Source: Limisphaerales bacterium (GTDB lineage Bacteria > Verrucomicrobiota > Verrucomicrobiia > Limisphaerales > UBA1100). From it: a DNA stretch of 39,485 nt. The stretch lies in assembly GCA_014382585.1 (NCBI GenBank), contig JACNJL010000055.1, forward strand, positions 1-39,485. The letters run 5' to 3'. The notes beneath the pieces are model-generated. The model searched no databases, had not been told where the DNA came from, and saw nothing but the letters and a program-made list of their open reading frames with translations. How positions within the stretch are numbered: position 1 is the stretch's first letter; each line of letters begins with the position of its first letter. Of the stretch, positions 6,488 to 34,471 are shown in pieces. The translations under genes and the position numbers were made by a program.

Positions 6488-7951
6488 TTATTTCGGAATT
6501 TCGTTCAGCGTGTAATACGCATTCGGGTGCAGGAGTGGAAGGCCGTCCTTGGAGCGGATGCCGCCGGACACGAGATGGTGCACGTGCCCTTTCACGAGGC
6601 CTTCGACCTTGATGTGGACGCTCTTGTTGTCCGCTGCCACCGTGGCGGAGGTGACCTTGGGCGTCACGTGGTCGACTTCCGGACTGCCGTAGCTGGATTG
6701 CAGAATGTAGGTCCACGCTTTCATGGAATAGCTGGCCACATCGCCGGCGGTCTTGGGATCGACCTCGTGGGTGAAGGTCAGCTCGAAGCCGTCGGGTTTG
6801 GCGCGCATTTCATGGATTTCGAACGGCACTTTACCGGTCCAGGTTACGCGATCGAGCGCGAACCGTTTGCCGCCGCGGGCGCCCCAACCGCGATCGCTGC
6901 CGCCCACGAAGAGGGCGCCGCTGGGATCGTAGTAGGAGGGAATGTTGCCCGAGCCGAAGCCGGTCATGAACAGGATCGCCGCGCCTTGATAGACGCCGTT
7001 GACCTTTTCCAACACCACGCGGCTGACGTTTGAGTGGCTTTGATCACTGACAAGCAGTTGATTCTTGAACGGCCCAAACTTGTCGTTGTTGGCGAAGGCA
7101 AACCCGCTGGTGGAATTGCCGAGCTTGGCGTGCGGCAGCACGCAGGCCGGCGGAACGTATTCCTTCACACGCTCGCGCTCCACGGGGATGCGGCTTTTGC
7201 TGTTGGGCACCACGGGCGGGTTGGGGCCCATGTGCTTTTTCACGAGCGGCAGATCCCACCACTTGTAGCTGGCCGGATGGCTCTGAAACGAGCCCGCCTT
7301 CAGGTGCTTCAACGAGCTGGAGCCATTCCACGGGCCCTGGTTGTCCGAGTAAAACACATCGCCGAGATGGTTCAGACCAATGCCGCCGGGGCTGCGAATG
7401 CCGCTAGCGGTGGGGATCATCTCGCCTTTCTTGTTCACGCGCACACACCAGCCGCGGTAAGGAGTGTTGCTGTTGAAGGAACCGGTGAGACACAGGACCA
7501 CCCACATGTTGCCTTCGGGATCAAATTGCGATCCAAAGGCGTACTCGTGGTAATCGCCGTTGATGCCCCAGCCGTCGGTGAAGGTTTCAAAGACATCCGC
7601 ACGACCGTCGCCGTCCTCGTCCTTGATGCGCGTTACTTCGCAGCGTTGCGTGGCGTACAGCCAGCCGTCGCTCCAGTGAATACCAAGCGGCTCGTGCAGG
7701 CCACGGGCAAAGAGCTTCACCTTCATGTCGTCCGCCTTGCCGAGCGGATTGCTAACGGTGTAGATATCGCCGCGGCGGGTGCTGACAGCGAGGTTGCCGT
7801 TGGGCAGCATGGCAATGCCGCCGGCTTCGAGCACGACCTTTTCCGGCAACGGCACGCGGGTGAACTTGTAGTAGTCCTCCTGCTTCGGCTGAGCCTGAGT
7901 GGTGAAACCGGCCAGCAGCAGGCCGGCGATCAGTGTAAGTTTTTTCATCAT
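6488..7951 (-). CDS. Secreted beta-propeller (PVC-type sugar dehydrogenase-like) protein
   Basis: A 487-residue protein. It has a signal peptide (MMKKLTLIAGLLLAGFTTQA), then six-bladed-propeller style repeats: GGIAMLPNGNLAVSTRRGDI, LHEPLGIHWSDGWLYATQR, IRSPGGIGLNHLGDVFYSDN and GSGNIPSYYDPSGALFVGGS. This is the NHL/SGL-type propeller common in Planctomycetota and Verrucomicrobiota cytochrome-linked dehydrogenases; PQQ or heme binding is not evident. An EF-type acidic loop (DEDGDGRADVFE) is also present. ATG 7951 was chosen because AGGAG lies about 7 nt upstream. It follows the cytochrome c/PA14 gene after 19 nt and probably accepts electrons to or from it. Substrate unknown. Confidence 0.8.
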   Translation of the reverse strand: MMKKLTLIAGLLLAGFTTQAQPKQEDYYKFTRVPLPEKVVLEAGGIAMLPNGNLAVSTRRGDIYTVSNPLGKADDMKVKLFARGLHEPLGIHWSDGWLYATQRCEVTRIKDEDGDGRADVFETFTDGWGINGDYHEYAFGSQFDPEGNMWVVLCLTGSFNSNTPYRGWCVRVNKKGEMIPTASGIRSPGGIGLNHLGDVFYSDNQGPWNGSSSLKHLKAGSFQSHPASYKWWDLPLVKKHMGPNPPVVPNSKSRIPVERERVKEYVPPACVLPHAKLGNSTSGFAFANNDKFGPFKNQLLVSDQSHSNVSRVVLEKVNGVYQGAAILFMTGFGSGNIPSYYDPSGALFVGGSDRGWGARGGKRFALDRVTWTGKVPFEIHEMRAKPDGFELTFTHEVDPKTAGDVASYSMKAWTYILQSSYGSPEVDHVTPKVTSATVAADNKSVHIKVEGLVKGHVHHLVSGGIRSKDGLPLLHPNAYYTLNEIPK

Positions 7952-7970
7952 CAAATCTCCTTAAACAGTT

Positions 7971-9551
7971 TTAGTTGAGGTCCCATTCGTATTTGGCGCG
8001 CAGGATGGCCTTGCCATCCACAATCACGGGCACCAGCAGTTCCTTGCCGTTGGCGCCATCCCGCAGGATGGGCGCGTCCGGACTATCGATTGTGAGCTTG
8101 AGGTTCTGGCCCACCTTCCAACTGTTGCCCTGTTTCTCAATGAACCCGTCGGCGGCGGCGAGATAGTAGTATTTGCCGCTGCCAGTCAGGGTGAGTTGAC
8201 GGGTAAAGGCCGGCAGAGCGCCGGCCTCGGGAGTCACGTAATCTTCAATCACCGTTTCGCCCGCGGTGTACTTGAACACCGGTCGGCGGCCTTCCACGAG
8301 CCGATACCCCCGGAACCGCAGGCCCTTGGCGCGATCATCATCGTTGTTGCCCAGCTTCAACTCCGGCCACGGAGCCTTCTCATCAGGCAACACGGCAATC
8401 GCCTGCGCGCGCTTGAGCTTGATCAGGTAATGGCCGCTGGGCGGCTGGAATCCCTGCCCGCGCCCGTTCCAGTGCTTGGCGCCGTCCATAAACGCGCCGT
8501 GCCAGGTCATCACAATATTCAGCGCGTTGGCATCGAAACAAATGTTCACGTTTTCCGGATAGCCCACACCAATGCCGCGTGGGGAGGCGCCTTGAATGAA
8601 GTTGCGATACATCACCGCCTCATTGTTCTCCGGCACAATCGGGTTGCCGGTGGCGATGGCCGGCTTGTTGCCACCACCCTGCGGGGCGGTGTTGTGGGCC
8701 AGCTGCAGTTTCTTGATACCGGGCCCGGACATATCGAGCGAGAGATGTTCGCCGCCACCTTTCTCAAAATACTCAATGCGGATCAGATTCACACCGGCAT
8801 CCAGCGTGGCCGTGCCGTTTTTGTTGACCACTCCGTGCACACCGTCGTTGACCACCACGGGCACGCCGTTGACCAACAACCGCGAACCGTCATCCGAACC
8901 GAGGTTGAAGGTGTATTTGCCTTTGGTCTTCACCTCGAGTTCGCCTTCGATTACCAACCCGAAATTATCCCGGGTCTCGGAAAGATTGGTATCGGCGATC
9001 CCGCTGTCCGCTTTGCCGGATTTCACCGGCTTCAGCTTCTCGAAATCAGGCAGGTTACTCCAAGACCCGTTGTAGACGCGGTACTGGAATTTCTTCAGCG
9101 CCCCCTTGGCCACAATGCCCGCACCGGCCGGAGCCGTTCCGTCACTGAGACTTTTCACATACGCAACGAGCGCCTTCATTTCCTCGTCATTCACCGCAGG
9201 CGGCGGCGGCATGGGTGCCGCGGCACTTTTCACCACCTTGGCAATCGGATTACGGATGGATTCAATGAAGTAGGCCTCATCGAACTTGGCCTTGGCATCC
9301 TTGCCGCCAAATCCGAGGGTGACCTCGCGTTCCTGCCCCCAGAAATTGCCTTCGAATTTCGGCGCTTTCATTGCCACGCCCGCGAGCGCCGGCGGCCCGC
9401 CATCCACCTGATGGCAGGTGAAACAAATCTTGGCCTGAAAAAGCGCTTTGCCTTGAGCAATTAAATCCGCATTCGCAGCCGAGATATTTCCGGTCAATGC
9501 CACGACCGCCAGCACGGGCAGTCCCCAACGAGAAACACATTGTGAGTTCAT
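7971..9551 (-). CDS. Secreted cytochrome c with PA14 domain
   Basis: A 526-residue protein. After a signal peptide (about residues 1-28), a monoheme cytochrome c domain carries CFTCH (43-47) and a distal segment APMPPPPAVNDEEMKALVAY that supplies the axial Met. Next comes a PA14-like beta domain (about 150-275: YNGSWSNLPDF, YTFNLGSDDGSRLLVNG, NLIRIEYFEKGGGEHLSLD), usually a carbohydrate-binding module. The C-terminal ~230 residues (YRNFIQGASPRGIGVGYPEN onward) resemble the region found beside propeller dehydrogenases in this phylum. ATG 9551 is preferred over a longer open frame that overlaps the next gene and encodes no signal peptide. It is probably the electron carrier of the downstream propeller enzyme. 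Confidence 0.85.
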   Translation of the reverse strand: MNSQCVSRWGLPVLAVVALTGNISAANADLIAQGKALFQAKICFTCHQVDGGPPALAGVAMKAPKFEGNFWGQEREVTLGFGGKDAKAKFDEAYFIESIRNPIAKVVKSAAAPMPPPPAVNDEEMKALVAYVKSLSDGTAPAGAGIVAKGALKKFQYRVYNGSWSNLPDFEKLKPVKSGKADSGIADTNLSETRDNFGLVIEGELEVKTKGKYTFNLGSDDGSRLLVNGVPVVVNDGVHGVVNKNGTATLDAGVNLIRIEYFEKGGGEHLSLDMSGPGIKKLQLAHNTAPQGGGNKPAIATGNPIVPENNEAVMYRNFIQGASPRGIGVGYPENVNICFDANALNIVMTWHGAFMDGAKHWNGRGQGFQPPSGHYLIKLKRAQAIAVLPDEKAPWPELKLGNNDDDRAKGLRFRGYRLVEGRRPVFKYTAGETVIEDYVTPEAGALPAFTRQLTLTGSGKYYYLAAADGFIEKQGNSWKVGQNLKLTIDSPDAPILRDGANGKELLVPVIVDGKAILRAKYEWDLN

Positions 9552-9634
9552 TTTTAAAATAGTCTGCGCACAGTGTGTCGGTGCACAGATTTTCGCGCAA
9601 GCACTCAGCGGTGGCGCGGAGCAATTAGGACTCC

Positions 9635-16041: not shown

Positions 16042-16131
16042 AAACGGCACTTTCGCGAAGACCAATGCAGATGTCAATGACCGCACTTTTACTCTTGGCC
16101 ACAGCGTGAGATGGCGTTTCAATGCCCACAT

Positions 16132-17442
16132 ATGGAAGGCATCCCCTCACCTCCACGGCGCGGCTTTACCTTGATTGAGCTGCTGGTGGTGATTGCGATC
16201 GTCGGAGTGCTGGCGGCACTACTGCTGCCGGTGCTTGGGCGCGCAAAGGCAAAAGCCCGGCGCGTTCAGTGCGTGAGTCAACTCGGGCAACTGGCGACTG
16301 CTTTGATTGCTTTTGCAAACGAACACGGAAACCGCCTGCCATGGCAATTCACGCCCTCCACCCAACGGGAATTTTTTGGGCCTCAACGTGATGACTTCGT
16401 CGGCCATCCGGCCGCCATCTTCTCGCTGCCTCCACTGCGGGCCGGGCTGGGTTCGGCTGAACTTTTGTGGTCGCCCTGCGATGCCGATCGCGAAGCCGCC
16501 AACCAAGCCGCCCGCGCCGACTGGTCCCAATACGATCCAACCATTGGCCGCATCCTGCCACACAAGGCAATCAGCTACGTGCTCATCCACGGCGCGGATA
16601 TTGGCCGCCCCACCACCGTGTTGGCCAGCACCCGCAATCTATCCACCTGCGATCTCGCCACGGCGCACTGGAGCGGCGCAGATGAAAAACACCCACCGCC
16701 TGAAGCGATGAGCGGCCTTAACAAAAGTCAGGGCCAACTCGTGGCGGCCGATGGTTCTGCGCGCCAATCGGATGATGCCGACCTTGGCACTTCCGGAAAA
16801 ACCGTGCTGGCTCATCGCGAATCAGCCGGTGGGGTCACCTTGGGCCGGGCGGCCACCGGTGTGCTCGGCTGCTGCGCTACGCCTTCCCCCGTGGTCGGCG
16901 CGACTATTCCCAACCTCTTTCCCAAGATAGCGGAAAACGGGAAAGGAACGCGGTACGTTTTTATTCTCGATTGCTCCGGCAGCATGCGCATTGACAAACG
17001 CTTGCAACTCGCCAAACAAGCGCTGTACCGCACGCTCCAAAAACTGGGTCCGAAAAAAGAATTTTTCATCTATTTCTACCACAGCGCAAGCATGCCGATG
17101 GACGGCGAGCCCTTGTCAGCCACCCCGGAAAATATCGCGCGCATCAAGTCATGGGTCAACGCCATCCCCGCCGCCGGTGGCACCGATCCGCGCGGCGCGT
17201 TGCGCGAAGCCTTTGGCGAGAAAAAACCCGACACCATTTGGCTGATGACCGACGGCATTTTCAAAGTGGGCAACGATACCCCCGTCCGGCGATTGATTGC
17301 CGACCTGAACCCAGACAAATCCGTACGCGTGAACACCGTTGGCTTCGGGCGCAAACCCGAGGATGTCGACAAATCCCTCGTCCCCATCGCCACCGAAAAC
17401 GACGGCAGCTTTGAATTCATCAACTCCCATCCGGGCAAATAA
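16132..17442 (+). CDS. Pseudopilin-VWA fusion protein
   Basis: A 436-residue protein. The N-terminus is a type IV prepilin-like leader, basic RRG then [20 protein letters not shown] (residues 12-31), with Glu at +5 as expected after cleavage between G and F. The pseudopilin core follows ([20 protein letters not shown]; a DUF1559-like layout). From about residue 275, a von Willebrand A domain carries the MIDAS motif DCSGSM and later [10 protein letters not shown] and WLMTDGIF. This joins a type II secretion or pilus-like anchor to a metal-dependent adhesion domain. ATG 16132 is preferred over ATG 16111 since it gives a short positively charged leader. It heads a three-gene operon and diverges from the GNAT gene. 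Confidence 0.85.
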
Positions 17443-20012: not shown

Positions 20013-21233
20013 TTAGAAATCAATTCGGCAGTTGGGAAGGGCTATGCGGAGCGCCTCCACTTCGCTGCGCGGAATGGGGTTTCCGCCGAGGCTGATCAGG
20101 TCCAATTGCCCGAGGCCGGCGAGCGCGGTGACGCGGGTAATACGGTTGCGTTCAAGATATAAAATCTTGATGTCCTTGAGTTTCGACAAGGGAGATAAGT
20201 CGCTGATCACATTGTCGTTCAGGTTCAAAAACTCAAGCGCATGGAGATTTTCCAACGGGCGAATATCTGAAATTTCATTTTTTGAAAAATCCAGCGACTC
20301 TATCCGCAATAGTTTACCCATGGGTTCGAGAATGCGGATCTGATTTCCACTCGCATCCAACTTACGCAACTCCTTTAAGCGCGCTATGGGGGCGATTGAG
20401 GTGAACCGGTTGTTGCGAATGATCAGGTCATTGAGCGTGCTGATGCGGCCGAGGGGTTCAAGATCGGCCACGCGATTATCGCCTAAATCAAGCCGGCGCA
20501 ATTGTGGTAACCTCGCCAATGGGGAGACATCTTCGATCCGGTTGAATCGCAGATAAATCACTTCCAACTTGGTGAGCGATTCAAGGGGTTCAAGATGTTC
20601 CACGTGGTTGTTGTTGAGGATGAGCAAATGCAACCCGCGGAGTTGACTTACGGGCTTGAGATCGCTCACCAAACTTTGGGCAAGATCAATTCGGTCCAGC
20701 TGCAACAACTCGGTTTTGGTGATGTCCCCTTCGGGTTTCCTAAGTTCCTCGCGCAACTTGATCTCAAACTGAGCATTGGAAAACTTAACCCGTTCGACCG
20801 GATCGCCCTCGGCCACTCCCGATTCACCACCCCATCGCGAATGCGATTCGCTGCGCACTTCCACCAATTCATAAATCCCGTATTCACGACTATAAATGAG
20901 ACGCATGGTGTAGTTAAAAAACACCCCGGGCCAAATATAATCATCCACCATATCACCCTCCCGGCTCCGCGGTTCAGAGGCATCGGGTTCGCGCTTCATC
21001 AATGCGTGAACCTCGTCACGATTCACGTCCGGCCCTTGTAACAGGAAAAAGAAATCGTTTGCCTTGGCCTCACACTCACGCCGCGCCTGAAGATCAATCC
21101 AGAAACCCACACCCACCAATAGCAACACCCCCGTCAACCCGATACGAAACGCCAGCAGTACTCGGCCTCTTTTAGGCGATTCAACTTCGGGCTCAGCCTC
21201 AAGCTTGTGAATGTCCGCGTCGAATTTGCTCAT
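20013..21233 (-). CDS. Single-TM leucine-rich-repeat protein (internalin-like)
   Basis: A 406-residue protein. A charged cytoplasmic N-terminus (1-26) precedes one TM helix (LLAFRIGLTGVLLLVGVGFW, about 26-45). A non-repeat region of ~130 residues follows. Residues about 190-395 form eight to nine 22-residue LRRs of the SDS22/internalin type: LHLLILNNNHVEHLEPLESL, LEVIYLRFNRIEDVSPLARL, LEFLNLNDNVISDLSPLSKL. These build a curved binding surface, placed outside the membrane by topology. It is convergent with the M28 gene and 164 nt downstream of the Sel1/zinc-ribbon gene. Ligand unknown. Confidence 0.85.
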   Translation of the reverse strand: MSKFDADIHKLEAEPEVESPKRGRVLLAFRIGLTGVLLLVGVGFWIDLQARRECEAKANDFFFLLQGPDVNRDEVHALMKREPDASEPRSREGDMVDDYIWPGVFFNYTMRLIYSREYGIYELVEVRSESHSRWGGESGVAEGDPVERVKFSNAQFEIKLREELRKPEGDITKTELLQLDRIDLAQSLVSDLKPVSQLRGLHLLILNNNHVEHLEPLESLTKLEVIYLRFNRIEDVSPLARLPQLRRLDLGDNRVADLEPLGRISTLNDLIIRNNRFTSIAPIARLKELRKLDASGNQIRILEPMGKLLRIESLDFSKNEISDIRPLENLHALEFLNLNDNVISDLSPLSKLKDIKILYLERNRITRVTALAGLGQLDLISLGGNPIPRSEVEALRIALPNCRIDF

Positions 21234-21397: not shown

Positions 21398-22054
21398 CTA
21401 ACAACTTCGGGCCAGCAAATACAAGACGACTCCCACCCCAAAAACCGCATCCAAATTAAAGCCCGGTTCTTTTGATTTTGCTTCTCCGGAATTTGTTTCC
21501 TCAACCGGCAGCCGGGGTTCCGGTTTTTTCCCAAACCACCGCATCAGTCGCGATTCGGTGTTCCCAGTTCCGCCCATTGCCCCCTCGAAGTTTACCGGTT
21601 GACCCACGGTTGAACGTCCGGGCGAACTCGATTGTTTGTGGGACCAACCGCAAATCCAGCACCGTAAATCACCATCCCAATCCTGCAACGGACCGTGGCC
21701 GTTGGGGCAATTCCCTTGCCCCGCCGAATCAGACTTGGATTCTTTGGCTTGCCGGAGGGGTTTGGTCTTGATCACTGGAGGCAGTGCTACCTCCGCGACA
21801 GCCCCCACCTTTGCTTTTGTAGCGGCACGGGGCGTTTCCAATTTGCCTGGGTTTTTTTTCGACCCACCCAGAGTCGCCAGAATTCGGGCGGCATCCTCGT
21901 GACCCTGTTCTGCCGCACGCTCAAACCAATGTCGGGCTTGCTCCAGATTCTGTTCCGTTCGATCGCCGGTCTGGTAAATGACCGCCAATCGATATTGGAT
22001 TTTAACTTCATTTAACTCCTCGGCGCGGAAAATAAGATTGTCCAGAATTCGCAT
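21398..22054 (-). CDS. Sel1-repeat plus zinc-ribbon protein with C-terminal hydrophobic tail
   Basis: A 218-residue protein. The N-terminal ~70 residues hold two Sel1-like units (VKIQYRLAVIYQTGDRTEQN, ARHWFERAAEQGHEDAARIL). A low-complexity linker rich in Lys, Ala and Pro follows. Around residues 114-136 is a zinc-ribbon-like CPNGHG...LRCWICGWS with four metal ligands (Cys-x3-His and Cys-x2-Cys). The last residues form a short hydrophobic tail (FNLDAVFGVGVVLYLLARSC) that could anchor the protein, tail-anchored fashion. This combination is not one I recognise. It lies 59 nt downstream of the PqiA-like gene and may be the last gene of that operon. Confidence 0.7.
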   Translation of the reverse strand: MRILDNLIFRAEELNEVKIQYRLAVIYQTGDRTEQNLEQARHWFERAAEQGHEDAARILATLGGSKKNPGKLETPRAATKAKVGAVAEVALPPVIKTKPLRQAKESKSDSAGQGNCPNGHGPLQDWDGDLRCWICGWSHKQSSSPGRSTVGQPVNFEGAMGGTGNTESRLMRWFGKKPEPRLPVEETNSGEAKSKEPGFNLDAVFGVGVVLYLLARSC

Positions 22055-22113
22055 GAGGAAAAATTCTTAATTTTTTTGATCACCCCGCCGGCAAGGCCGG
22101 TGAATGCCAAAGG

Positions 22114-22641
22114 TTAATCTTCCGTGCCCTCCGAGGCAACGGAATTGCGCCCGCCGCTGATATACAGTGAAATGTAAATACTCAACAACACCGAAGCACA
22201 AAAGGCCGCCGCGCCCCACTCAACGGCCACACGTGAACCGCCGGGCAAACCCTTGACAGCCACCACCAGCACCGCCAGCACAAATACATCCAACATCGAC
22301 CATTTACCGAGTTGATTCACCCAGCGTACCGAGCCGCCGATGTTCAAACCCGCCGCCAGCCGGGCGGAGGCCATGTAGTACACCCCCAGTTTCCAAATCG
22401 GGAACACCACAGAAAAGAGCAGCACCATCACGCCGATAAACACACTGCCCTCGTCAAACATGGAACGGATGCCTTGGAGAATGGAATAAGTGGTGGGCAC
22501 GGTGAGTTCGGGGTTAATCAGCCGTACGAGCGGGGTGAACTCGCCAAAGCCGGGGTGCAGCGTCATGCAGGGTGCAAACAACCCAAGCCCAAGCAGTCCC
22601 GCCGCCACCGCAAGGCATCCCTGAAGTTGCCGCGGGTTCAT
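22114..22641 (-). CDS. PqiA-like integral membrane protein
   Basis: A 175-residue protein with four predicted TM helices (about 8-27, 67-92, 118-134, 140-163). The family hallmark YSILQGI..MF.EG...IGVMVLLFSVVFPIWKL followed by LGKWSMLDVFVLAVLVVAVK matches the paraquat-inducible protein A (PqiA/YebS) family, inner-membrane partners of MCE lipid-transport proteins. It is a single-domain version without the CxxC zinc motifs of full-length PqiA. No MCE (PqiB-like) gene is in the window. The start ATG 22641 follows the C2-like gene stop by 5 nt, so they are cotranscribed. A role in envelope lipid movement is inferred from family only. Confidence 0.8.
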   Translation of the reverse strand: MNPRQLQGCLAVAAGLLGLGLFAPCMTLHPGFGEFTPLVRLINPELTVPTTYSILQGIRSMFDEGSVFIGVMVLLFSVVFPIWKLGVYYMASARLAAGLNIGGSVRWVNQLGKWSMLDVFVLAVLVVAVKGLPGGSRVAVEWGAAAFCASVLLSIYISLYISGGRNSVASEGTED

Positions 22642-22646
22642 AACGG

Positions 22647-23336
22647 TCAGCGCAGGGCCTCCACGAGCTTTTCCACCGGCTGCGCGCTGTCCACTACGCG
22701 CAAGACAAAACGCTTGAGCCCGCCGCGCCCGGCCGCCATCTGCGCGCGATCGCGCGTGGGTTTGCCTTCGGCATCAATGAAATACGGGTTGTCGCCCGGC
22801 TCGAGATCGGCCAGCGGAATGGCGCAACCGCCGGCGAAGTCGTCCCGCACCGGATCGTCATCATACGCCCGAATGACCAATTCGCCCTTGGGTTCCACTG
22901 AAATTAACGCTGCTTTAATCAGATTGCGTGGCGAAAACCGCTGCCCTTCGCTGGAAAGCACCTTGCGTAATTCGACCACGCTCACATTCGTGCCCAAGCC
23001 AAACCACTTGCCGATGAGCGCATTTTTCACCACATCATTTTCCGTGTGATACACCGTCTTGCCGTGCCAGTTCAGCTGATAAAATAAATCCGGCGCGGAA
23101 CTTCCCGCGTCCCAACTATCGCCCCCCTCCTTCATCGGATGAAACTCCATCAACGTCACCAGCACATAATAATCCTTCCCCACCACCACCTTCCGCGAAG
23201 GCGCGCGCGAAGCCTCTTCCGTCTCCTTGTCGCCCCACAAAAACACCGCCCCCACCGCCAACACAATCAACAACGGCACCATATAATAAAAAGGCGCAGG
23301 AGTCGGTCGCGTTTCTGTGGGTTTGCTTTCGGCCAT
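22647..23336 (-). CDS. Membrane-anchored C2-like domain protein
   Basis: A 229-residue protein. A short cytoplasmic start (MAESKPTETRPTPAP) leads to one TM helix (FYYMVPLLIVLAVGAVFLWG, about 16-35) and a beta-rich domain. Its layout (YYVLVTLMEFHPMKEGGDSW, DLFYQLNWHGKTVYHT, AALISVEPKGELVIRAYDDD, DDFAGGCAIPLADLEPG) resembles a C2 domain, including an Asp cluster DDDPVRDDF in the position of the calcium/lipid-binding loop. C2 domains typically bind acidic lipid surfaces. ATG 23336 is chosen over a longer frame that overlaps the upstream gene. It sits 11 nt after the secreted-protein gene. The C2 assignment is by eye. Confidence 0.65.
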   Translation of the reverse strand: MAESKPTETRPTPAPFYYMVPLLIVLAVGAVFLWGDKETEEASRAPSRKVVVGKDYYVLVTLMEFHPMKEGGDSWDAGSSAPDLFYQLNWHGKTVYHTENDVVKNALIGKWFGLGTNVSVVELRKVLSSEGQRFSPRNLIKAALISVEPKGELVIRAYDDDPVRDDFAGGCAIPLADLEPGDNPYFIDAEGKPTRDRAQMAAGRGGLKRFVLRVVDSAQPVEKLVEALR

Positions 23337-23347
23337 GGCGAGGGGGT

Positions 23348-23974
23348 TTACGGCTTCGGCTTCAGGGCCACGTTGCCGCGGATCTCGCGCAACGTGTTCC
23401 AGATCGCCTTGTCGCGTGGCTTCGGTGAGGCGCACACAAACAGATATTGATGCGGCGAACCGACAAATTTCAAGGTCTGCAGTTCAAAGTGCAGCGTCTG
23501 AAACTTGCGCGTGGCAAAGGGCTCGATCCAGTTCACCGTGGCCGTGAAGGACGCCACGTCGAACGACCCTTTCGGTTTCTTCTCAAAATGCTTCATCTTG
23601 CGCACGTTCACCGAGAACTTGCTGGTGTCCAACTTCGGGTTACCCAACCGCGCCTTGGAGAGGCCGGCGTAATAGGTAAACAATTCCTTCTGCAACACTT
23701 CAGACGTCAGCACGGGTTTGGCTTCCACGGCGAAGAGAAAGACGTACGTGAAAAAATCCGGCTGATCCGCCTTGAACATCCCCGGCGAGAAGAGAATTTC
23801 CTCAATACCCTTCAGGCCCAGATCCGGGGCAAACCCTTTCGGTGGGAGCGCAATGCGTTCGCCAAACCATTTTGGCGTGGGTTTCTTGATGACAAACTGC
23901 TGCTGCGCCAACGGCTGAGCCGCGGACAATGATACTCCGGCCAATGCCAGAACAAGAAGGATGGTTTTTTTCAT
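23348..23974 (-). CDS. Secreted hypothetical protein (208 aa)
   Basis: It has a signal peptide (MKKTILLVLALAGVSLSAAQ). The mature chain is rich in beta-like segments and aromatic residues (FFTYVFLFAVEAKPVLTSEV, SFTATVNWIEPFATRKFQTL, KFVGSPHQYLFVCASPKPRD). No family is recognised. It lies 15 nt after the P-loop gene and 11 nt before the C2-like gene, so it is part of the same operon and is expected to work outside the membrane in the same process. Confidence 0.75.
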   Translation of the reverse strand: MKKTILLVLALAGVSLSAAQPLAQQQFVIKKPTPKWFGERIALPPKGFAPDLGLKGIEEILFSPGMFKADQPDFFTYVFLFAVEAKPVLTSEVLQKELFTYYAGLSKARLGNPKLDTSKFSVNVRKMKHFEKKPKGSFDVASFTATVNWIEPFATRKFQTLHFELQTLKFVGSPHQYLFVCASPKPRDKAIWNTLREIRGNVALKPKP

Positions 23975-23989
23975 GAGTTTAATTTGTGT

Positions 23990-24556
23990 TTACGAGTTTA
24001 AAGCGGGTTGTTCCATTCGGCAGTATTTTCGAAATAAACGCAAGGCACGATCAAAACTACAGTGGGGATAGCGTTCCAGAATGTGGTTCATATCCAAATA
24101 GCTCGATCCGTATTCGGCACAATACGATTCCAGAGCGGCTTGGGTAAATTCGATCCGCTCCGCTTTCAAATGACGCGCCAGTTTTTCACGGTTCACATCC
24201 GTCCGCCACAGTTGAGTCGACCACCCGATTCGTAGCGGGGCAAACCATGCAGGGTGTAAGTGCGCGGCTAACAAGACTTGATTGCCGCGCATCAATAACC
24301 GGATCAATTTGTACAATTCACGGGGACGGATCAGATCATCCACCACCACCAATCCGTTTTCCACTGCCGGCACCGTCCAATCCAATCCGCCTCCGATCAC
24401 CCGCTCGATGGGCCGATTTTGAAAATCAGGATGATGTTGGATCAACCATTGGATCGCCGTCGATTTCCCGGAACCACTCACCCCAGTAAAGACCGCCAAT
24501 CGCGTCGACCGGAATGAGGCCGTTTTCAACTCAAGAAAATCATCAAAGCCGGTCAT
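23990..24556 (-). CDS. P-loop NTPase, cassette copy 1
   Basis: A 188-residue soluble protein. Walker A is GVSGSGKS (25-32) and Walker B-like NGLVVVDD (67-74); a conserved LAAH (His99) follows where a sensor residue could lie. The C-terminal half has conserved RTD..REKL.RHL (118-130), C.EY..SY.DMN.IL (146-160), RYP...SFD.AL..F...CRM. It aligns without gaps to the NTPase at 32796-33359 with about 105 of 181 identical residues. I do not know this family; it resembles no common ABC, kinase or AAA subtype by eye. Its start overlaps the stop of the two-TM membrane gene (ATGA). It is probably the ATP-using partner of that protein. Confidence 0.85.
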   Translation of the reverse strand: MTGFDDFLELKTASFRSTRLAVFTGVSGSGKSTAIQWLIQHHPDFQNRPIERVIGGGLDWTVPAVENGLVVVDDLIRPRELYKLIRLLMRGNQVLLAAHLHPAWFAPLRIGWSTQLWRTDVNREKLARHLKAERIEFTQAALESYCAEYGSSYLDMNHILERYPHCSFDRALRLFRKYCRMEQPALNS

Positions 24557-25641
24557 GTGATAAAAAAATCGGTGACCTCAATTGAATCGATCGGCCCTTT
24601 TAATTCGTGGTCGATGAATTCGTCGTGGAGCAACTGGACCTCCCAATAAACCGCCAGCCCGTGTGTTTTCGATATTTCCAACGGCGGATACAACGCCTTA
24701 AACATCGGCCCAAAATCCACCTCCCCGGGAAAATGATTCCCGATCTCCTGACGCTTCGGAATGTGACCCACTCGTTCACTATAAAGGATAATCGGGCGAA
24801 CCGGCTCCTCAAAGCTCACCGTGCGTCGGTTAGACCCGGAGCCTCGGATATATTGCCCCATCTCCATGTTACAAGCCACCACCCGCAAAGTCATATTCTT
24901 GAGATCAATTTCCGATTTCCCTGAAACCAGTTGTGAAATTGGCAGACAGGTACCCCGCGTGATGGCGGGAATCGGCCGAAGCGATACGTTGATGTACGAT
25001 CTAAAAAGAGAGTTTTTCTGCCACACCCAAAGGCAAACCATTAAAATAAAGAGGAAAATAATGAAAACCACTACACCTACAATCGAGTCATCAGAATCAT
25101 CAGAGCCAAGTTCCCAAATCAGCCAGCTCCCGCCAAGCCATCCAAGGGCACACAAGAGAGACATCAGGATGAAGCCCATTTTCCTTCCGGATGATAAAGC
25201 ATCAAAATTTTTGCCGAATTGAACTGTATCAAAAGGATCAATCACTTCTGTGGCATCACCGCCACGGCTACCAGACCGCGCGTCCACCAACTTGAATTGC
25301 GTCGTCCGGCTCACCTGAGAATCCTTTAAGATCCACGCATCATCCACTTTGAGATTCGCACGCAACACGATGGATGCATGGGTTCCTTCATAGGTGAAGC
25401 ATTCAAACGAATCGGTTGGAATCTCAAGTTCATATTCCGTGCGATCCACAACGAACTTGTCGGTGTACAGATTCGTCTCATCATTGACCGGACTTGAATC
25501 ATGCACCTCACTGGCCAGATCGAGAGAGAACTCGGCCTTTTTCCCCATCATCTTGGGGTCGGTGATTTTGAGGATGACGGTAAAATAATTCGGCCGAAAA
25601 GAAACATCCGGCCGAATTGATAGATGTAGATGGTCCGACAC
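24553..25641 (-). CDS. Two-TM, arrestin-like-flanked membrane protein, cassette copy 1
   Basis: A 362-residue protein. Residues 1-120 are beta-rich (FTVILKITDPKMMGKKAEFS, ELEIPTDSFECFTYEGTHAS, IVLRANLKVDDAWILKDSQV) and look like an arrestin N-type sandwich. TM helices lie at about 155-177 and 187-207, with an acidic loop (SDDSDD) between them. Residues 215-362 form a second beta-rich part (RVVACNMEMGQY, RTVSFEEPVRPIILYSE, HGLAVYWEVQLLHDEFIDHE). The start is GTG 25641. It is a paralog of the 33356-34471 product. Both fold assignments are inference. The base composition is visibly more AT-rich than copy 2. Confidence 0.8.
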   Translation of the reverse strand: MSDHLHLSIRPDVSFRPNYFTVILKITDPKMMGKKAEFSLDLASEVHDSSPVNDETNLYTDKFVVDRTEYELEIPTDSFECFTYEGTHASIVLRANLKVDDAWILKDSQVSRTTQFKLVDARSGSRGGDATEVIDPFDTVQFGKNFDALSSGRKMGFILMSLLCALGWLGGSWLIWELGSDDSDDSIVGVVVFIIFLFILMVCLWVWQKNSLFRSYINVSLRPIPAITRGTCLPISQLVSGKSEIDLKNMTLRVVACNMEMGQYIRGSGSNRRTVSFEEPVRPIILYSERVGHIPKRQEIGNHFPGEVDFGPMFKALYPPLEISKTHGLAVYWEVQLLHDEFIDHELKGPIDSIEVTDFFIT

Positions 25642-25693
25642 GTTGATTAATTAAATCATATAACGGTGGCGCTACACAACCCAACAACCCGTA

Positions 25694-26950
25694 TTATTTT
25701 CCCCCAATCGCATACAACGCCTCGTGGGTGCGCAGGTAAATGCGGCCGTTGCTGGGGGCCGGGGAGGCGGTGAGCCCTCCGGCGAGTTTGTTCTTGGCCA
25801 GCACCTTGAATTCCCGACCGGCCTGCAGCACGGTCACCATGCCGTCCCGCGAGGTAATATAGATCTTCCCATCCCCGGCCACCGGCGAGGCGCGGTAGGT
25901 TTGGCGATGAGGCGACTCGGAATAGAGTTGCTCGCCGCTCTTGGCATCGAGGCACGTCACCGTGCCGTTTTCACGGCAGAGATACACGAGGTTGTTGTAA
26001 ATCACCGGGGAAGGCACATCCGGCGTGCCGCGGTCAATGCGCCAGACCTCTCCCTTGCCGCCTTTGCCGATGAAGCCCTTGGCACCCGTCACACTGATGG
26101 CGGCCACGCCGCGATTCTTCGCCGAGGGAATGACCACTAAACCCTTATGCGCCACCGGCGAGGCCACAAAACGCAACGTCCGATTGTAGCTATCTTTGGG
26201 ATTCAGATCGCCCACCCGCCAGAGTTCTTTGCCGTCCATCGGATCATGCCCGATAGCGTAGTCGTTGCCATGCGTCACGATCTGAAATGTAGCCCCGTAC
26301 GCCACCGCCGTCGGGGAGGCGTAGGAATGCTCACATTCGGCCACACCGTCACTCTTGCGTTCCACCTTCCACACTTCCTTGCCGGTAAAGGTATCAATAC
26401 TCACCAGCAACGCCGCGTTGGAATGGATCAGCTGCAAATACAACCGACCCTGAAACAACAGCGGCGTGGAGTGAAAGCCGAAGCCCAGCCGGAATTTCCC
26501 GTAGCGTTCCTGCGCATTGAAACTCCAAGCCGGCGTCCCGTCATATTTCGTGGCCGCCACATCGCCGTTGCCGGTCATGGTGTAAATGTGCCGTGAATTT
26601 GCGCTTGGCGTAGGCGAGGCCAGCGTGCGTTCGCCCGAACCCGTTCCCTTGCCAGTCCCCACCGGCGTACGCCACAGTTCCTTGCCCTTGAGGTCCACCG
26701 CGATCAAGTACACCTGCTTGTCAATCTCCGCCATGGTAAACACCTTGCCGGCAAACACAATCGGCGTGGCGGAACTGGAGCCCTTGATCGGCAGTTTCCA
26801 GAGCACATTTTTGTCCTCGGCCCATTCGGTCGGGAGATTTTTCTCCACGCTTACGCCATCATGACGCGGCCCGCGCCAGTGCGGCCAATCGACCGCGGCG
26901 ACTTGGAAGACAACAGTAAACAGCAATGAAGTAACGAGTAGGTTTTTCAT
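25694..26950 (-). CDS. Exported PQQ-type beta-propeller protein
   Basis: A 418-residue protein. A signal peptide (MKNLLVTSLLFTVVFQVAAV) is followed by the diagnostic DWPHWRGPRHDGVS. Then come repeated propeller blades of the PQQ-like (BamB-type) repeat: GKVFTMAEIDKQVYLIAVDL, GRLYLQLIHSNAALLVSIDT, GKIYITSRDGMVTVLQAGRE. The C-terminus ends NGRIYLRTHEALYAIGG. The family is abundant in Planctomycetota and Verrucomicrobiota; most members lack a proven cofactor. ATG 26950 is preferred to TTG 26956 at the frame start. It lies 8 nt downstream of the DUF1501 stop and is the last gene of that operon before cassette copy 1. Confidence 0.85.
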   Translation of the reverse strand: MKNLLVTSLLFTVVFQVAAVDWPHWRGPRHDGVSVEKNLPTEWAEDKNVLWKLPIKGSSSATPIVFAGKVFTMAEIDKQVYLIAVDLKGKELWRTPVGTGKGTGSGERTLASPTPSANSRHIYTMTGNGDVAATKYDGTPAWSFNAQERYGKFRLGFGFHSTPLLFQGRLYLQLIHSNAALLVSIDTFTGKEVWKVERKSDGVAECEHSYASPTAVAYGATFQIVTHGNDYAIGHDPMDGKELWRVGDLNPKDSYNRTLRFVASPVAHKGLVVIPSAKNRGVAAISVTGAKGFIGKGGKGEVWRIDRGTPDVPSPVIYNNLVYLCRENGTVTCLDAKSGEQLYSESPHRQTYRASPVAGDGKIYITSRDGMVTVLQAGREFKVLAKNKLAGGLTASPAPSNGRIYLRTHEALYAIGGK

Positions 26951-26958
26951 ATTCAAAA

Positions 26959-32797: not shown

Positions 32798-33359
32798 AGA
32801 CCGAGCGTGTGGGTTGCATCCGGCAATGGCGGCGGAAGCGGGCTAGGGCTTGGTCGAAACTGCGGTCGGGATAGCGCCCGAGGATGAGGTTCATGTCGAA
32901 ATAGCTCGCGGCATATTCGTCGCAGAAGGAGTCGATGGCCTCGCGCGTGTAGGGGATGGCGCGGGCGTCCAGGTGGCGCATGAGTTTTTCGCGGCTGGTG
33001 TCGGTGCGGAAGAGCCGCAGGCGCCAGCGCAGTCGCAACGGCTGGAACCATGCCCGATGCGGATGAGCCGCCGCCAGCACGGTGTTGCCGCGCGCCAGCA
33101 GCTGCGCCAGCCTCGGTAATTCGCGGGCGTGGACGATGTCATCAACGACTACGAGCCCATTGTGTTGCGCGGGCAATGTCCATTGGCCGCGGCGGCCTGC
33201 CACGTGGGTCACCGGTCGGCCGGCATAGGCGGGATGATGGGCGAGCAGCCAGCCGATGGCGGTGGATTTGCCCGAGCCGCTCACGCCGTTGAAGACGACC
33301 AGCCGAACGCCTTCCAGATCGGCATCGCGCAGGTTCAGGTAATCGTCAAACTCCGTCAT
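32796..33359 (-). CDS. P-loop NTPase, cassette copy 2
   Basis: A 187-residue protein. It shows the same landmarks at the same positions as copy 1: GVSGSGKS (25-32), NGLVVVDD (67-74), RTDTSREKLMRHL (118-130), CDEYAASYFDMNLIL (146-160), RYPDRSFDQAL, CRM. Differences cluster at residues 11-18 and 50-60, leaving the nucleotide site intact. ATG 33359 overlaps the membrane gene stop as ATGA; a longer in-frame start (33401) would only add residues inside that gene. It is visibly more GC-rich than copy 1, and its 3' end overlaps the truncated propeller tail. Function unknown. Confidence 0.85.
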   Translation of the reverse strand: MTEFDDYLNLRDADLEGVRLVVFNGVSGSGKSTAIGWLLAHHPAYAGRPVTHVAGRRGQWTLPAQHNGLVVVDDIVHARELPRLAQLLARGNTVLAAAHPHRAWFQPLRLRWRLRLFRTDTSREKLMRHLDARAIPYTREAIDSFCDEYAASYFDMNLILGRYPDRSFDQALARFRRHCRMQPTRSV

Positions 33360-34471
33360 GCCGCCAAAAAATCCTCGTAGCGGAACAGATCCACCGGGCA
33401 CACCAGTTCCTGGTCCACAAATTCTTTATGGATCAATTGCACCTCCCAATAGATTTCCAACCCGTGGCGGGAGGAGATGGTGTTGGGCGGATACAGCGCC
33501 GCGAACATGGGCTCAAACGCAATTTCGTCGTCGAAAAAACTCGAGACCGGCTGGCCGGCGGGGATGAGGCTCACCTTTTTTTCAAACAACTTCACCGCGC
33601 GCACCGGCTCCTCGAAGCTGACTGTGCGCTCCTGCGTGCCATGCCCTTCGCGGTACTGCCCCTTCTCCATGTTGCAAGCCACCACGCGCAGGATGATGTT
33701 CTCCAAGTCCACCCGCGACTTGCCCTCGATGAGTTCCGACACACGCAGGCGTGTGGAGCGGTTGATGCTGGGCAGCCTGCGGAGTTGTAAAGTCATATAC
33801 TTTCCCAACTGGCGCTGCATGGCCCACCACATCACCACCGCAATCACCACGTCGACCGCCAGCGCGGCCAGAATCGGAGGCCCGCCTTCATCATCCGAGC
33901 CATCGAAGTGATAGATAATCGTATTGCTTTGGGACGCTCCCTGATCATGGATCCCCACGAGTGTGTTCGCGCCAAGGACGACCACGCCGATGACGACGAT
34001 GAGGAGGGTTTGGATTTGGCTAAACCACGGCACCGCCTTCAGGTTCTTGACGAACTCGAACGCGTCATCCGGATCGATCATCCGGCTGGCATTGCCCTTG
34101 ACCCGAGGTTTGTTGCCCGCCAGCTGGAGCACCACCGACTGCTCCACCTTGGTATCGAAAACCCATGCATCATCCACCACCAACTTGGCCGACACCACGA
34201 TGGAAATATTCTGCCCAGAGTAGGTGTATGTGCGATGCTGGCCGATCGGAATTTTCTGCTTATGCCCGGAGCCGCTTACTCGGAATGACGTGCCAAAGAG
34301 TTCCTTCGAACCGTTCACCGGCCTCACCTCCGAGACACGGCACGTCGCCACCAGTTGCAACTTCGCCTCCTTGCCCTGCATTTTGGGATCGCGAAACGCT
34401 ATGTCCACCCACACATGATCCGGATCCCTGCCGACATCGTAAGTGACCTTTAAACTTGCTCCATCCGCCAT
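33356..34471 (-). CDS. Two-TM, arrestin-like-flanked membrane protein, cassette copy 2
   Basis: A 371-residue protein. Beta-rich N-part (1-120: FRDPKMQGKEAKLQLVATCR, TYTYSGQNISIVVSAKLVVD, DAWVFDTKVEQSVVLQLA), TM helices at about 152-173 and 199-218 with an acidic loop between them (GSDDEGG), and a beta-rich C-part (RVVACNMEKGQY, RTVSFEEPVRAVKL, HGLEIYWEVQLIHKEFVDQE). These match copy 1 block for block. ATG 34471 is chosen over ATG 34510 because it aligns with the N-terminus of copy 1 and has GGGAG upstream. The arrestin-like label is a fold guess from strand pattern, not from a search. Confidence 0.8.
   Translation of the reverse strand: MADGASLKVTYDVGRDPDHVWVDIAFRDPKMQGKEAKLQLVATCRVSEVRPVNGSKELFGTSFRVSGSGHKQKIPIGQHRTYTYSGQNISIVVSAKLVVDDAWVFDTKVEQSVVLQLAGNKPRVKGNASRMIDPDDAFEFVKNLKAVPWFSQIQTLLIVVIGVVVLGANTLVGIHDQGASQSNTIIYHFDGSDDEGGPPILAALAVDVVIAVVMWWAMQRQLGKYMTLQLRRLPSINRSTRLRVSELIEGKSRVDLENIILRVVACNMEKGQYREGHGTQERTVSFEEPVRAVKLFEKKVSLIPAGQPVSSFFDDEIAFEPMFAALYPPNTISSRHGLEIYWEVQLIHKEFVDQELVCPVDLFRYEDFLAA

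Follow-up and report, generated by a model that had tools for sequence, protein, structure and literature searches.

Do the closely spaced minus-strand genes of contig JACNJL010000055.1 (Limisphaerales bacterium, Verrucomicrobiota, assembly GCA_014382585.1) encode a single membrane or lipid-handling machine, or have separate gene sets come to lie side by side? We analyzed the whole stretch of 39,485 nucleotides, here called the window. A sequence-only reading had placed a membrane protein gene, M, and a P-loop NTPase gene, P, in a tight operon with genes for a secreted protein, S, and for C2-like and PqiA-like envelope proteins, and had seen in this set the hint of such a machine. We consider it likely that the run is a mosaic, i.e., that an autonomous M-P cassette adjoins a separate envelope-protein unit, S-C2-PqiA-Sel1-LRR (LRR, leucine-rich repeat), the two having been joined within S. 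Because each unit also occurs independently, they need not form one lipid machine, and the link of M-P to PqiA and C2 is best read as a local mosaic. This averts a wrong assignment of M-P to a PqiA lipid machine by association.

Gene order of the run

The bases confirmed the minus-strand order M, P, S, C2-like, PqiA-like and Sel1/zinc ribbon, with successive gaps of -4, 15, 11, 5 and 59 nt; the tight run from 25641 to 22114, followed 59 nt on by the Sel1 gene, was hence found as described earlier. M (24553-25641, GTG start) encodes 362 residues with two predicted transmembrane (TM) segments between two beta-rich lobes, as expected for the two-TM protein of the set. P (23990-24556) encodes 188 residues and shares 4 nt, an ATGA, with the end of M; Walker-A-type matches agree with its description as a P-loop NTPase. 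S (23348-23974, 208 residues) has one hydrophobic N-terminal stretch, in line with a secreted protein. For the C2-like gene (22647-23336, one N-terminal TM anchor) the ATG at 23336 was chosen as start; a longer open reading frame (ORF) beginning with GTG would overlap S. Its label survives only as a weak match below the gathering cut-off of PF00168 (13 vs 22 bits, E=0.12). The PqiA-like assignment (22114-22641, 175 residues, single domain, four predicted TM segments) was upheld by PF04403 with 72.7 bits against a cut-off of 23.8, and that of the Sel1 repeat/zinc-ribbon-like gene (21398-22054) by PF08238 with 41.7 bits against 30.7.

The run extends beyond both ends given earlier. A PQQ/BamB-like propeller gene recognized by Pfam (25694-26956, minus strand) ends 52 nt upstream of M. 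On the other side, the Sel1 gene is followed on the same strand by the last gene of the downstream unit, encoding an LRR protein with an N-terminal TM anchor (20013-21233, Pfam), and then by a terminator-like hairpin (19879-19849; 14 pairs, 9 of them GC, T tail; a consensus match only). Promoter and terminator scans of the window gave match numbers at chance level, with this hairpin as the only strong one.

The two units occur apart from each other

Conservation of gene order, which had been proposed as a check on the operon, was found for the downstream part. The order S-C2-PqiA-Sel1 is kept in G125 (locus L014), a genome of the same genus, and in G534 (L102), with the C2-like protein at 76% and 83%, respectively, and without M-P at these loci. 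The LRR gene follows Sel1 in G125 too, 70% identical and in the same order, and beyond it stands the same peptidase gene as in the window; the G534 contig stops within Sel1. On the other side of S, where the window has P, both genomes carry a beta-lactamase-family (PF00144) gene. P had no match in the whole G125 genome, and G534 contains a truncated M without P, away from its S-C2-PqiA block.

The upstream part was found in G104, which is syntenic with much of the window. Here and in two further loci (L015 in G104, L017, L018) the order is PQQ-M-P-S, followed by a counterpart of window gene 16111-17442, without the block from C2 to LRR. Neither C2-like nor PqiA had a match in the whole G104 genome. 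In L016 (9665-12165), PQQ-M-P-S is followed by an alternative downstream set of a metallo-beta-lactamase-fold gene, a GYF_2 gene and a gene whose product is 31% like the N-terminal region of the LRR protein in the window.

The complete order from M to Sel1 was seen in this window only, so that conservation of the full run was not borne out. The earlier suggestion that the M-P pair is separable from its PqiA and C2 neighbours held well. On the minus strand of the window, a second cassette of M2 (33356-34471, 36% identical to M, 507 bits with the M profile) and P2 (32796-33359, 57% identical to P, 4-nt overlap with M2) is a diverged homologue of the first, and it lacks S, C2 and PqiA neighbours. 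With M-P found elsewhere without C2 or PqiA in its flanks, and the block standing without M-P, the proposed sharing of one membrane or lipid machine is not supported.

A join at the 3' end of S

The window S protein is 85% identical to that of G104 and 63% to that of the congener G125. Along the S gene, DNA identity to G104 lies at 0.77-0.97 over most of the length, falls to 0.67 near the end and to 0.40 beyond, and in the following C2-like gene identity to G125 and G534 climbs to 0.80-0.88. Because the nearest relative switches at this point, the window combines halves of two kinds, of PQQ-M-P-S type upstream and of S-C2-PqiA type downstream, and these alignments place the join within the final ~60-80 bp of S. 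In four distant relatives (L069-L072), S directly follows the PQQ propeller gene with no M-P between, which suggests that M-P was inserted between the two. PQQ-S forms a two-gene pair of its own in these relatives.

We propose that M-P came to lie between the PQQ-propeller gene and that gene's old neighbour S, whereas S-C2-PqiA-Sel1-LRR would be an envelope-protein operon of a few close relatives. Homologous recombination within S, which both types share, would most likely have fused the two units. The downstream unit would probably serve the envelope independently.

Recent exchange of M-P

We compared identities at fourfold-degenerate sites. Window P reached 0.84-0.93 to L016, L008 and L017, and window M 0.83-0.91 to L016 and L008, compared with 0.52-0.60 for S, 0.65 for PQQ, 0.66 for DUF1501 and 0.59 for PSD1 in the flanks (Fisher test, p 1e-5 to 1e-9). 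A PQQ value against L008, computed in a wrong frame, is excluded from this comparison. The block of high identity spans about 23,850-25,700. As fourfold identity exceeds that of the flanks, M-P has by this measure been exchanged among lineages later than its surroundings, and the cassette moves by recombination. M of L017 and L018 has well-conserved ends around a divergent N-terminal, TM and middle part (down to 0.42), and segments of M appear to have been swapped.

Window 6488-9551 is a second recently exchanged block, with fourfold identities to L008 of 0.84-0.86, against 0.34-0.47 for nearby genes (9635, 10800, 12463, 15541).

Distribution of the M-P pair

The M alignment, scanned against 84,980 species genomes, yielded 23 loci; an initial search using the P-loop alignment had confirmed no relative, probably since Walker A patterns are too common. 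P directly follows M in 22 of these loci and in most cases overlaps it at an ATGA or GTGA; the hosts are mostly marine Verrucomicrobiota and Planctomycetota, plus one Gracilibacterium. BLAST gave no match to C2-like or PqiA-like in the flanks of related M-P loci; the flanks of the Gracilibacterium locus (L037) are readable only under genetic code 25, and the ORFs listed for it include neither. There the M-P pair itself (7896-9562, 7-nt overlap) is open only under code 25, with 19 codons in M and 6 in P read otherwise than in table 11. In the sole locus without P (L019, 326-1234), M ends at about residue 294 and is fused to unrelated sequence, i.e., the cassette is decaying; its genome retains an S-C2-PqiA-Sel1 block on a different contig. 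Locus L034 (936-4166) has two tandem M genes ahead of one P, and beside the second M the ATGA start of P lies in another frame than the remainder of P.

The pair is patchy in distribution, since among 387 sampled genomes of the phylum a profile search found M in the window's own genome alone. Within the order, P was present in 4 of 146 genomes, counting that of the window. Matches of a P profile in 67 other genomes of the phylum were left out of these counts, being short Walker A matches of 19-25 bits. M and P trees recovered the same main clades, as expected for a jointly inherited pair. Scans found no M relatives in viral contigs or plasmids and no P relatives in phages.

A functional link to PSD1/DUF1501 genes, which stand near several M-P loci, was dropped because DUF1501 matches number 75 in the own genome by itself (G000, 3.7 Mb), roughly one every 49 kb. 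A DUF3127-like gene, named by eye, lies near M-P in seven Opitutales/Verrucomicrobia loci (L029-L036) and is possibly a case of shared synteny.

Predicted properties of M and P

P contains the Walker A motif GVSGSGKST, the Walker B motif LVVVDD and a conserved H99; GxSGSGKS/T and hhVVDD/E are conserved in its relatives. Its predicted structure (pLDDT, the predicted local distance difference test score, of 89.8) shows a compact AAA+-like core with a short helical C-terminal end, after which the chain stops in relatives as well (about 172-229 residues). With Walker A and B in such a core, the model places P among AAA+/STAND NTPases. Its nearest folds are RFC and the NTPase domains of CED-4, Apaf-1 and Avs (VIA-align 2, Z up to 11 over 176 residues, root-mean-square deviation 3.2). 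Sequence matches are mostly confined to the Walker A region, and Pfam gives Walker-A-type matches only.

M gave no meaningful family match in Pfam or NCBIfam; the Pfam search covered 19 members of its family, likewise without a meaningful match, and none of them matched any arrestin-clan model at E up to 0.1. Its model resembles two arrestin/VPS26 lobes split by a TM hairpin (segments 157-175 and 186-204), and ARRD-6, VPS26 and arrestins led the Foldseek search (best E 1e-8). We treat this likeness as a lead. In each of the 19 M proteins, an acidic loop (consensus YSHxDSDGDxSSP) connects the TM helices, and a positive stretch follows TM2. By the positive-inside rule, a positive flank marks the cytoplasmic side, and both lobes are therefore expected to be cytoplasmic, on P's side of the membrane.

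From this we tentatively propose that M sits in the inner membrane, its two cytoplasmic arrestin/VPS26-like lobes linked by the TM hairpin and its short acidic loop pointing outward. P, probably produced in step with M by translational coupling at the ATGA overlap, would be a minimal AAA+/STAND-like NTPase; docked on the M lobes, it would switch M's hold on a partner or cargo at the membrane. Two properties of the M model speak against this mechanism: it is moderately confident (pLDDT 70, predicted template modelling score 0.46), and VIA-align 2 scored arrestins (Z ~8) level with other beta sandwiches. Less likely than not, like this mechanism in its details, is the wider proposal that M-P is an undescribed bacterial membrane switch, a TM-hairpin-split arrestin-like protein with a dedicated minimal AAA+/STAND-like NTPase, spread by recombination across bacteria of the Planctomycetes-Verrucomicrobia-Chlamydiae group and Gracilibacteria. 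M-P on its own is the cleaner target: two genes of unassigned function in constant order in three phyla, showing signs of recent exchange between genera and matching no family model of the searched libraries. The arrestin-like fold is best known from eukaryotic receptor and cargo sorting; should M prove to be arrestin-like, anchored in the membrane and served by an NTPase of its own, a bacterial branch would be added to it.

Weighing the alternative readings

That the genes from M to PqiA, or to Sel1, co-evolved as a single operon serving a membrane or lipid-transport machine now appears very improbable. Tight spacing on a single strand and membrane or secreted products fit such an operon, yet gene order has already largely refuted it, each half being found without the other and M-P relatives occurring in three phyla without C2 or PqiA nearby. 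MCE-domain genes, which the sequence-only reading had suggested looking for, do not help it either: the genome has a single MCE/MlaD match, in a MlaE-MlaF-MlaD operon on another contig (C64), away from PqiA. PqiA-family genes turned up in 19 of the order's 146 genomes, and the four neighbourhoods inspected hold other, unrelated partners, e.g., NnrS. It is also unlikely that the window order is ancestral, G104-like genomes having lost C2-PqiA-Sel1-LRR, with M-P deleted from G125 and G534 and their upstream part, most of S included, replaced. Gene loss is common, and the shared parts, C2-PqiA in the window, G125 and G534 and PQQ-M-P-S in the window and G104, would fit; this course, however, needs at least two events with ends in the same 60-80 bp of S. 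In the four more distant outgroups S moreover adjoins PQQ, with what looks like neither M-P nor C2-PqiA, and the excess identity of M-P indicates recent exchange whatever the order.

The mosaic of two units has points against it as well. The scan of the run found no strong terminator-like site between M-P and the downstream unit, and with tight spacing throughout, the units are probably co-transcribed here, which makes a local functional link possible. S adjoins P in five genomes (the window and L015-L018) and may matter to M-P there, and the direction of the rearrangement is inferred from parsimony. As to function, M-P might be an anti-phage or other conflict module with P as STAND-like sensor or switch and M as membrane effector, which we regard as rather doubtful. 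Patchy distribution, spread by recombination, the divergent M middle in L017 and L018 and the nearness of the P fold to CED-4/Apaf-1 and Avs NTPase domains speak for it. PADLOC 2.0.0, however, gave no convincing match, with weak Walker-A-scale matches for P and none for M; no defence genes were recognized around M-P loci, and the viral, plasmid and phage scans came back empty.

Comparison with known systems

The PqiA-like protein shares with the PqiA/LetA family (PF04403; PqiABC, LetAB) a score above the Pfam cut-off and four predicted TM segments. It differs in having one domain instead of two and stays far under the cut-off of the PqiA/YebS transporter model TIGR00155 (38.2 vs 260 bits, 108 of 403 positions matched). 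The partners of PqiA in E. coli are the MCE protein PqiB and the lipoprotein PqiC (PMC10897342). Such a set of PqiA, MCE protein and lipoprotein was not found here, where C2-like, Sel1 and LRR proteins are the partners and no MCE gene is adjacent; any lipid role of the single-domain protein would hence do without the usual MCE neighbour. The Mla operon, although present in this genome with the single MCE match, is unconnected to M-P or the PqiA-like gene.

P resembles AAA+/STAND NTPases in its Walker motifs, AAA+-like core and helical C-terminal part, with sequence similarity mostly limited to the Walker A region. Unlike STAND NTPases, which combine winged-helix, sensor-repeat and effector domains in one chain, it consists of 188 residues without any of these. 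The arrestin clan, with arrestins and VPS26, is present in bacteria with Spo0M (PMC2515105), and the predicted beta-sandwich lobes of M may be of its type. M stands apart from this clan by the TM hairpin between its lobes, by giving no Pfam sequence match and by its NTPase partner.

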